IMG/VR virus record: IMGVR_UViG_3300006925_002211
Location: 1-24,025 of that record
Length of the DNA stretch: 24,025 bases
Source: a virus
Direction: 5' to 3' (one strand)
Positions 8,169 to 17,160 of this stretch are shown piece after piece (the first letter of the stretch is position 1; each line of letters begins with the position of its first letter). Position numbers and translations under genes: made by a program. Under the pieces are notes generated by a model that searched no databases, was not told the origin of the DNA, and saw only the letters and a list, made by a program, of their open reading frames with translations.

Positions 8169-8720
8169 ATGGACATAAACAATAAATTGATAGAACAGTG
8201 GGAACCTAAGATTAATCGAATGCTCCAGACAACTTCTATACGTGGTATGGATAGGGAGGATATAGCACAAGAATTACGTATTGCTATTCTAAAAGCAGCA
8301 AAAGGCTTTGATCCTAGCAGAAAGGTTTCGTTTCACACCTATTTACATACCACTATGATTAATACAATAAGAACTTTGATAACTAAAGCCCAACGCCGCC
8401 CTGAACCGCAAAGTTTAGACGCTTATTTATCTTCTTTTAGTCACGAAACGGAATACTATCCGTCTTCTGCTGAAAAAGCTTTATCGGTAACCATTGACAT
8501 GGACTCTGAGTTAGTATTAAAATCTTCTTTAGAACACTTTGGGTTTTCCCATACGGAAAAATCTTTTTTAGCTTTACGTATGGAAAATCTAACAATGGAT
8601 GAAATTTCTAACACTTTACAAGAATCAGCGTATAAAATTAGAACTCAGATTAGGCAGAGATTGGGTAGGCAGAACGAGAAAAGAGTTTTATTATGGTTAA
8701 ACGGGACGGAAAACCTCTAA
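8169..8720 (+). CDS. Phage-encoded sigma-70 family factor
   Basis: ATG at 8169 behind the A-rich AAAAAGGGG site. The 183-residue protein has a region 2-like core at about residues 27-73 (MDREDIAQELRIAILKAAKG, FDPSRKVSFHTYLHTTMINT), matching the helix that binds RNA polymerase beta-prime and the -10 element. A region 4-like helix-turn-helix lies at about 130-165 (FLALRMENLTMDEISNTL). Regions 1.1 and 3 are absent, so it has the size and layout of ECF or phage alternative sigma factors. It probably redirects host RNA polymerase to phage promoters. It follows the only strong sigma-70 promoter seen, so it may itself be expressed by the host polymerase and then switch on later genes. Its own target promoter was not identified. 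Confidence 0.8.
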   Translation: MDINNKLIEQWEPKINRMLQTTSIRGMDREDIAQELRIAILKAAKGFDPSRKVSFHTYLHTTMINTIRTLITKAQRRPEPQSLDAYLSSFSHETEYYPSSAEKALSVTIDMDSELVLKSSLEHFGFSHTEKSFLALRMENLTMDEISNTLQESAYKIRTQIRQRLGRQNEKRVLLWLNGTENL

Positions 8721-12504: not shown

Positions 12505-14472
12505 ATGCTAGTTACCTCTAAAACATACGATGAAACCTTAGATAAATTAAAAAATTATCCTACATGGACGGTTGATGTAGAAACTAACGGTTTAGATTGG
12601 TTTGGGAAAAATCAAATATGTGGGGTGGGAGTCGGTATCGAAACAGGGGAGACTTTCTATTTCCCGTTTAGGCACTTCCCGTCTTTAGAGGCGGAGAACC
12701 TACACCCGCTCCAATTAGGTCAACTAATGGAAGCTATGAACCAATGCTCTACTCTTATTGGGTATAACATTAAATTCGATCTACACTTCTTAGAGAAGGA
12801 TGGATTATCTATTACAGGTAAAGAATTATTAGATGTTATTGTACTAGTAAGATTGACGGAACCTGCGGATGTTAGAGAGTTTTCCCTTACAGCCACAATA
12901 AAACGCCTTTACGGTGAAGCTGCCGCAGAGTACGACATATCTACTAAAAAGATATTACGTAAAAATAAGTGGAACAAGGACTTTTCTCAAGCCCCTCCAA
13001 CAATTCTAGGGCCTTATTGCGAAAAGGACGTTGAGTATACATGGAAAATTTTCCAAGATAGGTTTCCACGAATAGAGAAAACGAAGCAAACTAGAATATT
13101 TGAACTAGAAAAAGAATTAACACATGTTTTATTTGCTATGGAAAAGCGTGGGTTACCTGTAGATAGCTTGTATGCTAAAAAAGCTGCGGATAAGTTAACT
13201 AAAAGGCAGGAGCAGATTAAGGAACGTATTTTCAACACGGTAGGGCATGAGTTCTTACTTACCAGCCCTGTACAGGTCGGAACAGCCTTAAAGGGGTTAG
13301 GCATTAAATCTGCGGTGCAGACCGTAAAAGGCAACGAATCGTGGGGGGAAGAAGCATTAGCGCAAATAAATCACCCTGTTGCAGGTTATATAAGGCAATA
13401 TAGAACATTAGGTAAACTACGTTCAACCTATCTGGAACCTTACTTTGATATACATACAATACATACTACCTTTTGTAATTGGGGAACCCTAACAGGGCGT
13501 TTATCTTCCAGAGACCCTAACCTACAAAATTTACCTAGAACTCACTTCAGGCTTTCAGATGATGCTCTGTCGCCACAAGAACGGGAAACAGTGAAAGGGC
13601 GAATCTCTGCGGCTGTTTCTGCTAAAGGTGGAACGTTCAATGAGGATTTATCTGATGAGGTTATTGATACATGGGGCTTTATTGGGGATGAATCTTTCGA
13701 TGAAACAGAGGAACATCAGATTTCTATCCGTAGATTATTTGTACCCCGTCCCGGCTACACCTTAGTTGGATTTGACTACTCTCAAATGGAAGTACGAGTC
13801 TTTTTAGATTACTTCCGTAACGCTGAAATTGACGCACTACTTAAAAAAGAGAATGTAGACTTTCACGGTGAAGCTGCTACACTAGCTTTCAATGTTGAGA
13901 AGGACGACCCAGAGTATAAGTACTATCGCCAAATGGCAAAAGCTATTACATTCGGCACTATTTACGGCATTGGGGCTAAGAAGCTAGGTATTCAACTTGG
14001 AGTACCGATGAGTCAAGCCTCCGACTATAAGAAAAAGTATTTTAAGGGACTAAAAGGGTCACGGGAATTCTTTGAGAAGGTAGTACGTGTTGTTAGTAGC
14101 AGGGGGTGGATTAAGAATAGGTACGGCAGAGTATACGTAGTTCCAAAAGACTTGGCGTATAAAGGGGTGAATTACCTTGTTCAAGGCACAAGTGCTGATA
14201 TTTTAAGTGAAAGAATGATAGAAGTAGATAAATATTTATCAAATAAGAAAAGTAATATTTTAGTACAGGTTCATGATGAGATTATTTGTGAAGTTCATGA
14301 TTCAGAACTAAACGATGTAACTCCTAACATTCAAAACCTACTACAAGAAAACTCTTTAGGAATCCCGCTAGAAGTTGACGTTGAGGTATGTAAACCGTCA
14401 TGGGCTACTAAAGTAGATTTCGAGCCGAACGTACAAGAAGCAGAAATAGATTGGACAATAGATTGGTCTTAA
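12505..14472 (+). CDS. DNA polymerase, family A, with 3'-5' exonuclease
   Basis: The 655-residue polymerase lacks the 5'-3' nuclease domain of bacterial Pol I. Exonuclease motifs are present: D24-x-E26 (DVETNGLD), D92 (YNIKFD) and Y171-x3-D175. Polymerase motif A is DYSQMEVR with D424. Motif B is R475-x3-K479-x3-F483-x3-Y487. Motif C is VHDE with D591. The residue equivalent to E. coli Pol I position 762 is Phe. An acidic insertion of about 50-55 residues (roughly 350-405) lies between NLQNLPR (339-345) and IRRLFVPRPG, where Pol I has only a short linker. ATG at 12505 follows TAGGAG and the hairpin just upstream. It is the replicative polymerase of the phage. Confidence 0.95.
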   Translation: MLVTSKTYDETLDKLKNYPTWTVDVETNGLDWFGKNQICGVGVGIETGETFYFPFRHFPSLEAENLHPLQLGQLMEAMNQCSTLIGYNIKFDLHFLEKDGLSITGKELLDVIVLVRLTEPADVREFSLTATIKRLYGEAAAEYDISTKKILRKNKWNKDFSQAPPTILGPYCEKDVEYTWKIFQDRFPRIEKTKQTRIFELEKELTHVLFAMEKRGLPVDSLYAKKAADKLTKRQEQIKERIFNTVGHEFLLTSPVQVGTALKGLGIKSAVQTVKGNESWGEEALAQINHPVAGYIRQYRTLGKLRSTYLEPYFDIHTIHTTFCNWGTLTGRLSSRDPNLQNLPRTHFRLSDDALSPQERETVKGRISAAVSAKGGTFNEDLSDEVIDTWGFIGDESFDETEEHQISIRRLFVPRPGYTLVGFDYSQMEVRVFLDYFRNAEIDALLKKENVDFHGEAATLAFNVEKDDPEYKYYRQMAKAITFGTIYGIGAKKLGIQLGVPMSQASDYKKKYFKGLKGSREFFEKVVRVVSSRGWIKNRYGRVYVVPKDLAYKGVNYLVQGTSADILSERMIEVDKYLSNKKSNILVQVHDEIICEVHDSELNDVTPNIQNLLQENSLGIPLEVDVEVCKPSWATKVDFEPNVQEAEIDWTIDWS

Positions 14473-15398
14473 AGGCACACCAAAGGTTTAGCAATTACGA
14501 TAAAGAACATAGTTGGCAATATGAGATACGTCTTCAAAATAAAGTAGAAGACTTAGCCCTTTCCAATCTATCGGAAGAAGCTGTTAAAGCTTTATCTATA
14601 GATGATTTTAAGTTTGAGTACATTGCTAAAGACAACAAAGCGGGTTGCCGGGAAGTTAAAGAGTTTATCGAACGGCACGAATGGCTTGGTAAAATGCCTA
14701 TATGGGTTACAGATAGATTTACCGCTAGGTTAAAGTCCTCTAATCTGCTTGCAGGGGTTGTTGTAATGGCTACACCTAACACGTTTTCAAATTTATTAGG
14801 GGCGGAAGGTAAGAATTTAGAAAAATTAATTGCTAGGGGTGCCTGTATTTCGTGGTCACCTAAAAATTTAGCTTCATGGTTAATAATGCAATCTATTAAA
14901 TGGATGGTGAAAAACACAGACTTTAGGTATTTTACAGCGTACAGTGACCCCGAAGCTAAGGAATTAGGTACTATTTATCAAGCTTGCAACTTCATCTATT
15001 TAGGTCAAAAATTTGGTAGCGGCTATCAGTACCTTGACCCTCAAAACAGAGAACGTGGGTGGTTTGGAGACTCTGGGTTTAGTGATAGGAGTCAGATTGT
15101 TCGATATGCGAAGGCTTTAGGGTTGCAATGGCAGCCAGAATGGTATAAAATGGTAGGTGCCAAAAAGAATTACCGCAAAGTAAATTGGCAAAATATACCC
15201 GAAGAAAGTACACAATTACTAAAACAAGAGAGGGCTAGGCATAAAAACAGTTGCGAGAAAAGGCAGTCCCCCACAAAGCATAAATATTGTTATATTTTAG
15301 GTATAAACCGTAAAGAGACTAAAAGTTTAGTGCGGCAGTTCAAACAAAACAACCCAGATAAAATTAATTTACCATACCCCCAGTTGAGGGGTAAGTAA
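14451..15398 (+). CDS. Mom-like DNA adenine modification protein
   Basis: A 315-residue protein resembling the Mom family (GNAT fold), which in phage Mu converts adenine in DNA to N6-methylcarbamoyl (acetamido-type) adenine to resist restriction. Visible family-like landmarks are ERHEWLGKMP (74-83), the substrate-binding-like LLAGVVVMATPNTF (99-112), SWSPKNLASWLI (134-145), and YSDPEAKELGTIYQACNF (164-181). D166 is a candidate for the catalytic Asp. The C-terminal KHKYCYILGINRK and LPYPQ resemble Mom-family ends. The start is uncertain: TTG at 14451 is the longest; TTG 14463 is another. Neither has a good RBS, and the first ATG (14694) would remove conserved residues. It overlaps the polymerase stop by 22 bases. 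Chemistry is inferred from family only. Confidence 0.68.
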   Translation: MDNRLVLKAHQRFSNYDKEHSWQYEIRLQNKVEDLALSNLSEEAVKALSIDDFKFEYIAKDNKAGCREVKEFIERHEWLGKMPIWVTDRFTARLKSSNLLAGVVVMATPNTFSNLLGAEGKNLEKLIARGACISWSPKNLASWLIMQSIKWMVKNTDFRYFTAYSDPEAKELGTIYQACNFIYLGQKFGSGYQYLDPQNRERGWFGDSGFSDRSQIVRYAKALGLQWQPEWYKMVGAKKNYRKVNWQNIPEESTQLLKQERARHKNSCEKRQSPTKHKYCYILGINRKETKSLVRQFKQNNPDKINLPYPQLRGK

Positions 15399-15923: not shown

Positions 15924-16862
15924 ATGGAAAAAGATTCAGAAAAAATTATTAATGAGCTACTTAAAAATAAAAAATTAAACCTTTTTAGGGGTGACGATAA
16001 AGAGTTTGAGTATTCTAAAATCCCCTTTGAGATACCTGCGTTAGACAGATTAACGGCGGGTGGTATAGCTAAGAAGCGTTTAACACTTATATACGGGCCT
16101 ACCAACGTGGGAAAGTCCTACCTAGCCTCCCAAATCTGTGCAAACGTTTTGAAGGCAGGTGGAAAAGCAGCTTGGATTGATACAGAGTTATCATGGGACT
16201 CCGATTGGATGGAGCGTTGCGGAATAGACACAGGTAAAATAATTGTAGGGCAACCTGAAAGCGGTGAGGAAGCTATGGATACAATCCGTACCTTACTTGA
16301 TGCCTCTTTTGATTTAGTAGTATTAGATAGTATTGCTGGGCTTGTTCCCCACAAGAACCTAGAAGAGGATTTCTCGTTCAACCCAATGGCGTGGCAAGCA
16401 CGTTTCGTTAACTCTTCGTTACCTAAAGTCCTCCCTAGTCTATCTAACGGCGGTGCGTTGGTGGCAATCAATCAGGTACGTAGTAGCATTGGCCCCGTAG
16501 CATTAGATAACATGCCGGGAGGCTTGGCACAGTCATTCTTTGCACATGCACTTTTACAGGTACGTCGTAAAGGTTGGATAGAAGATGCTGGCGTTAAGGT
16601 TGGTTTTGATATGGATGTACGCTTGCGGAAAACTAAAATCGGGGGAGAGAACTGGAATTCTGCAACGGTACCTTTTAGGGTAGATGGAGGCATAGACATT
16701 CTAGAAAGCTATATTAGAGAAGCAATAGGCATCAAACTTATAACTCAGGCAGGGCCTTGGTATACGTATAAAGAACAGAAATACATGGGTCTGAATGGAT
16801 TAAAGAAAGTCTTTTTAGAGGATGAACAATTACTGGAGGAACTAAAAAACAGTGTTACCTAG
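15924..16862 (+). CDS. RecA/UvsX-like recombinase
   Basis: A 312-residue RecA-fold ATPase starting with ATG directly after the preceding stop. Walker A is GPTNVGKS (58-65) with K64. A conserved Glu follows in WIDTELSW. Walker B is DLVVLDS (130-136). The sequence then contains AINQVRSSIG (a RecA L2-adjacent motif with the usual NQ) and the segment GGLAQSFFAHALLQVRR resembles the RecA/UvsX monomer core. It lacks the long RecA C-terminal domain. It should polymerise on ssDNA and drive strand exchange in phage recombination and recombination-dependent replication. The following genes for two nucleases and a resolvase support this. Confidence 0.86.
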   Translation: MEKDSEKIINELLKNKKLNLFRGDDKEFEYSKIPFEIPALDRLTAGGIAKKRLTLIYGPTNVGKSYLASQICANVLKAGGKAAWIDTELSWDSDWMERCGIDTGKIIVGQPESGEEAMDTIRTLLDASFDLVVLDSIAGLVPHKNLEEDFSFNPMAWQARFVNSSLPKVLPSLSNGGALVAINQVRSSIGPVALDNMPGGLAQSFFAHALLQVRRKGWIEDAGVKVGFDMDVRLRKTKIGGENWNSATVPFRVDGGIDILESYIREAIGIKLITQAGPWYTYKEQKYMGLNGLKKVFLEDEQLLEELKNSVT

Positions 16863-17160
16863 AGACTATACTGCCCAAGAAAATATAATTGCTAACTATT
16901 TATCGGAATGGGGAATACGTTATGAGACGCAAGCACCGTTTCCTCCGTATACAGTTGATTTTTATATTGCAGAATTAAATATGGTAATTGAAGCGGATGG
17001 GGTGTACGGTCATTTAGGTAAACGTGATAGAATACGAGATCGCAACTTAATACAGACCGGAGACATACAAATTGTATTGCATTGTAAAGAAACAACTAAA
17101 GGTAAAATAAAGGAATTTCTATGGCAGGAATTAAACAAATTGGGAAATCTAAAGGATTAA
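16852..17160 (+). CDS. DUF559/Vsr-like PD-(D/E)XK endonuclease
   Basis: GTG at 16852 overlaps the recombinase stop by 11 bases. The 102-residue protein has the compact nuclease-like core: a first strand ending TVDFYI with D36, then MVIEADGVYGH with E47 and D49, and a later strand QIVLHCKE. In the DUF559/very-short-patch-repair family the signature is 'VDFxxxxxxLxIEvDGxxH'. This would place metal-binding at D36, E47 and D49. It may nick DNA in recombination or cleave host or rival DNA. It is encoded within the RecA-to-RuvC cassette. Active-site Lys is not clear. Confidence 0.7.
   Translation: MLPRDYTAQENIIANYLSEWGIRYETQAPFPPYTVDFYIAELNMVIEADGVYGHLGKRDRIRDRNLIQTGDIQIVLHCKETTKGKIKEFLWQELNKLGNLKD

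Follow-up and report, generated by a model that had tools for sequence, protein, structure and literature searches.

Mom of bacteriophage Mu produces N6-carbamoylmethyladenine in DNA, a modification that blocks restriction, and how a GNAT enzyme arrives at this adduct has been called a puzzle. Mu Mom is said to be an iron and acetyl-CoA enzyme, as Karambelkar reportedly described in a 2020 study cited in PMC8072286. The gene is expressed late and is controlled by overlapping com, and the protein has been crystallized as the S124A form (entry 8bv8), described there as an inactive mutant. We number Mu Mom by its 231-residue form; crystal numbering is 10 higher, as shown by the S-to-A change at position 114. 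Mom-like proteins (phrog_1384) from the isolated phages RaK2, PK3.6, Phynn, DSL-LC03, PMBT8 and P12002L share the family and its core residues and carry the canonical H-Y (HY) and H-x-G motifs. Several of their genes lie among DNA-metabolism or methyltransferase genes: that of Geobacillus phage PK3.6 is beside helicase and SSB genes, that of RaK2 beside dihydrofolate reductase (DHFR) and Dda, and those of P12002L and Phynn beside DNA methyltransferases. Mom-REase fusions have already been described for jumbo phages (PMC7824862); they share the Mom domain with the protein considered here, which is unfused.

The window, by which we mean the whole stretch of 24,025 nucleotides of viral DNA that was analysed (IMG/VR record IMGVR_UViG_3300006925_002211), contains an ORF encoding a Mom-family, GNAT-fold relative of Mu Mom directly behind a DNA polymerase gene:

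12505..14472, + strand: upstream family-A DNA polymerase (PolA) with a 3'-5' exonuclease domain (PF00476, 3.6e-73; PF01612, 6.5e-9; phrog_17)
14451..15398, + strand: mom-like gene, 315 aa, TTG start (PF25680, 2.2e-11; phrog_1384, 1.4e-15; best match of the AlphaFold2 model Mu Mom 8bv8, Z 16.7)
14451..14472, + strand: 22-nt overlap of the polymerase and mom-like genes, without a Shine-Dalgarno site
14463, + strand: second in-frame TTG, alternative start of the mom-like gene

Several lines of evidence support the family assignment. The Pfam Mom model scores the window protein at 44.2 bits against a curated cut-off of 27.1, and the PHROG 'Mom-like' family matches it over residues 65-306; a search of NCBIfam returned no meaningful match. 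Within the core, only about 16% of residues are identical to Mu Mom. A single-sequence phmmer search against the PDB missed Mom, whereas a profile from the group alignment, with some canonical Moms included, found 8bv8 at 2.6e-8, and profile-profile comparison of the group with 17 canonical Moms gave 99.8% (E 1.7e-28). The AlphaFold2 model (pLDDT 91.9) has 8bv8 as its best solved match, with an rmsd of 3.2 over 185 residues, and other GNATs reach a Z of at most 12.1; when a canonical phage Mom was modelled as a control, its score was 19.7 with 8bv8 and 12.9 with the structure ranked second. In a viral structure library the top match was 'Mom' of Salmonella phage FSL SP-031. An earlier note on this DNA had proposed a Mom-like gene from four landmarks, all of which are present in the window protein (YSDP at residues 164-167, GTIYQACNF at 173-181, KHKYCYILG at 276-284 and PYP at 308-310), and its proposal held up in the sequence- and structure-based checks it had suggested: the family HMM search, the comparison of a predicted structure with Mu Mom, and alignment of the catalytic Asp, for which Mu D139 is matched by window D166.

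The reading frame is confirmed as open throughout, and because the gene is open and conserved in relatives at 100%, 85%, 70% and lower identity, across dozens of viral contigs, the ORF is not a chance one. The polymerase overlap and TTG start that the note had also described are both there. Relatives at 85% identity have GTG at the position of the TTG start, and the TTGs at 14451 and 14463 are equal candidates for initiation. Neither is preceded by a Shine-Dalgarno site, unlike the start of the next gene, with AAGGAG before 15412. Together with the overlap, this suggests that translation of mom is probably coupled to that of the polymerase gene. Among the window's remaining overlapping genes, several likewise have no Shine-Dalgarno site, so that coupled translation is likely this phage's rule and not a peculiarity of mom. 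Scans for promoters and terminators gave fewer hits than in shuffled sequence. In contrast to Mu mom, the window gene has neither a Com-like regulator nor a Mu-type late operon; the gene that overlaps it upstream is PolA, and there is no small Com-like ORF. A protein with sigma-70 region 2, encoded at 8169-8720, may serve the phage as a sigma-like factor of its own. The terminase of the window is too distant from those of known phages to indicate a host.

Set against an alignment of 63 sequences, thinned so that none shares more than 80% identity with another, the window protein keeps the residues common to all Moms and departs from canonical Mom at several others:

14451..14630, + strand: N-terminal helical extension, residues 1-60, as seen in alignments; canonical Moms are without it
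14679..14684, + strand: E77-W78, replacing the invariant His48-Tyr49 of canonical Mom
14826..14828, + strand: L126, replacing the invariant Glu98 of canonical Mom in strand beta-4
14835..14837, + strand: R129, equivalent to Mu R101, the same in all 63 aligned sequences
14874..14876, + strand: S142, equivalent to Mu S114 (S124 in the crystal), the same in all 63
14946..14948, + strand: D166, equivalent to Mu D139, present in all but one (HY-type) sequence
14961..14963, + strand: E171, at canonical His144 (Arg in Mu)
14976..14978, + strand: Y176, equivalent to Mu Y149, present in all 63

Mu N153 is also kept, as N180, as are the C-terminal PYP and the Mom-specific pattern D-x4-[HRE]-x-G-x2-Y-[QK]-A-x-N. 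At Mu positions 48-49, 41 of the 63 sequences have E-W and 22 have H-Y, counts taken from a collection assembled by scans whose patterns derived in part from EW-type proteins. The EW and HY labels were set from the E-W motif, and positions 98, 144 and 173 are outside that definition. HY-type sequences have Glu98 in 22/22, His144 in 21/22 (Mu has Arg) and His173 in 20/22; the 41 EW-type sequences all have Glu at 144, and all lack both Glu98, replaced by Leu in 38, and His173. No mixed states occur among the 63. The window protein thus departs from the canonical subgroup at E77-W78, L126, E171 and G206, the last at Mu His173. Independently of MAFFT, hhalign sets H48-Y49 opposite E77-W78, and in a tree one branch, supported at 100/97, sets all EW-type sequences apart. 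As judged from sequence, the EW-type is a separate, well-supported Mom branch in which residues fixed elsewhere have been exchanged in a coordinated way. Its swapped positions would be near the cleft, judging by where they fall in the succession of GNAT strands and helices; Glu98 lies in beta-4, a strand where GNATs often hold the general base. The extension, part of a protein 84 residues longer than Mu Mom, carries an S/C-W-Q motif with a nearly invariant Q23, and in the model it forms helices at residues 22-38 and 42-47. The earlier note had missed both the swap and the branch.

The window gene belongs to a run of replication genes that share its strand, with which it is presumably co-expressed. 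About 1.5 kb downstream of it, the same run includes a small DUF559 / Vsr-like nuclease gene (16852-17160) that could be related to recombination or counter-restriction. From the position behind the polymerase, the earlier note had suggested modification during replication. Such a tie of the enzyme's action to replication would be in keeping with the shared strand, the overlap without a Shine-Dalgarno site and a PolA-Mom order that does not vary within the window's lineage (L003-L007, L014, L020, L028, L041) on any contig spanning this site. An EW-type gene also follows a Pol III alpha-type polymerase in L022 and L031 and is within three genes of PolA in L011/L012. However, where an EW-type record includes a polymerase gene recognised as PolA or Pol III alpha, Mom adjoins that gene or lies within about three genes of it in only three lineages; in the remainder, which are most of the related phages, whole-record searches place it 7-47 kb from the nearest polymerase, and other relatives are in integrating elements. 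Adjacency in three of about fifteen lineages, one of them the reason for picking the window, is not clearly above chance. We therefore rejected polymerase adjacency as a functional clue and regard a tie to replication as improbable; of the note as a whole, the Mom identification stands and the replication timing does not. It is common for Mom genes to lie elsewhere than in a Mu-like late operon. The EW-type protein of Vibrio phage 501E54-1 (CAH9014377.1), 44-45% identical over almost the full length, and that of phage f2b1 (QIA28539.1), on a distant early branch, differ from the window protein in gene neighbourhood, neither being encoded behind a polymerase, and the f2b1 gene is flanked by ribonucleotide-reductase genes. 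Since Mom neighbourhoods vary so widely among DNA-metabolism genes, a place in a replication operon is unremarkable.

EW-type genes also occur in Bdellovibrionota, the phylum of Bdellovibrio-like predatory bacteria. A search of 369 genomes of this phylum with the Pfam model only hit 15 of them, at 17 places: 15 are EW-type, one (L246) is too short to class and one (L231) is divergent and has neither pattern; in the L231 protein, from position 1405 onward, Phe takes the place of the conserved Tyr. Most of the EW-type genes share an arrangement of FtsK-like ATPase, replication-relaxation-like protein (a weak match), Mom, HTH_17 (separate or fused) and tyrosine integrase, which reads as an integrating mobile element. 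About ten loci on contigs from Bdellovibrionota and other MAGs (L094-L105) have this order with HTH_17 or an excisionase-like gene and one or more tyrosine integrases. A search of plasmids gave no match. On two viral contigs the EW-type Mom is fused behind a DUF7487 homing-endonuclease-like region (L033:3879-5819 and L036:3843-5831). Other copies are unusual in form. Two tandem Mom genes occur on one phage contig (L042 record, G028:12825-13457 and 13696-14052), the first an early-branching EW-type, and again in L190; EW-related Mom-domain fusions of about 1001 aa and about 505 aa begin at L111:1953 (KSB1 MAG) and L112:3131 (Bacteroidales MAG); and an EW-type Mom of 376 aa (L031:5004-6131) carries two insertions, one of ~40 residues that separates the N-terminal extension from the core and another near the C terminus.

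The most reasonable explanation, which we hold with good confidence, is that the window gene encodes a DNA-modifying, anti-restriction acyl-transfer enzyme of the Mom family, on a distinct EW branch with a rebuilt active site and probably coupled in translation to the polymerase gene. Such an enzyme would bind acyl-CoA through the Arg/Ser region, with Tyr176 at the usual alpha-4 GNAT position and DNA adenine as the acceptor, and would add a small acyl-derived group to phage DNA bases, most likely at N6 of adenine; DNA so modified could then no longer be cut by host restriction enzymes. We count in favour of an anti-restriction role that the carriers, phages and the FtsK/tyrosine-integrase/HTH elements of Bdellovibrionota, are mobile DNA that meets restriction, and that fusions to homing-endonuclease-like nuclease domains occur. 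The GNAT fold alone is compatible with a protein or small-molecule substrate, and protein N-acetyltransferases share it at a Z of about 12; yet Mu Mom scores clearly higher and the Mom-specific pattern is kept, so that acylation of host or phage proteins in place of DNA is very unlikely.

Within an anti-restriction, DNA-modifying role, the swap could be read in more than one way. The window protein may well be an ordinary Mom that makes Mu's product, N6-carbamoylmethyladenine, with the swaps only re-tuning DNA contacts or metal binding. The common fold and the core Arg, Ser, Asp, Tyr and Asn shared by both groups are what this would predict, and we rate it a strong candidate that falls a little short of probable, since the swap hits otherwise invariant His, Tyr and Glu without intermediates. 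Because the canonically invariant His and Glu are among the swapped positions, the reaction may have changed. We tentatively entertain a modification other than that of Mu, made by a rebuilt active site that uses a different acyl donor, leaves a different adduct or transfers without metal. The coordinated change from H48/Y49/E98/H144 (or Arg)/H173 to E/W/L/E/non-His in one branch argues for it, and loss of two conserved His could matter for an iron enzyme, if the chemistry reported for Mu applies; by eye, however, the basal EW-type protein L230 seems to have retained a His close to position 173. It is conceivable, though doubtful, that the EW branch of marine phages and Bdellovibrionota integrating elements, without the conserved His and the beta-4 Glu, makes a different, perhaps metal-independent and uncatalogued base modification.

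The worthwhile finding, on sequence grounds, is an EW-type branch with a coordinated residue swap, represented here by a marine phage gene. This branch, in which positions fixed in other Moms are cleanly exchanged, offers a ready natural comparison for Mom chemistry: should its product prove identical to that of Mu, the His and Glu that it has lost are dispensable, and should it differ, there is a new DNA mark. The range of Mom is also widened, from phages to integrating elements in the genomes of predatory bacteria.
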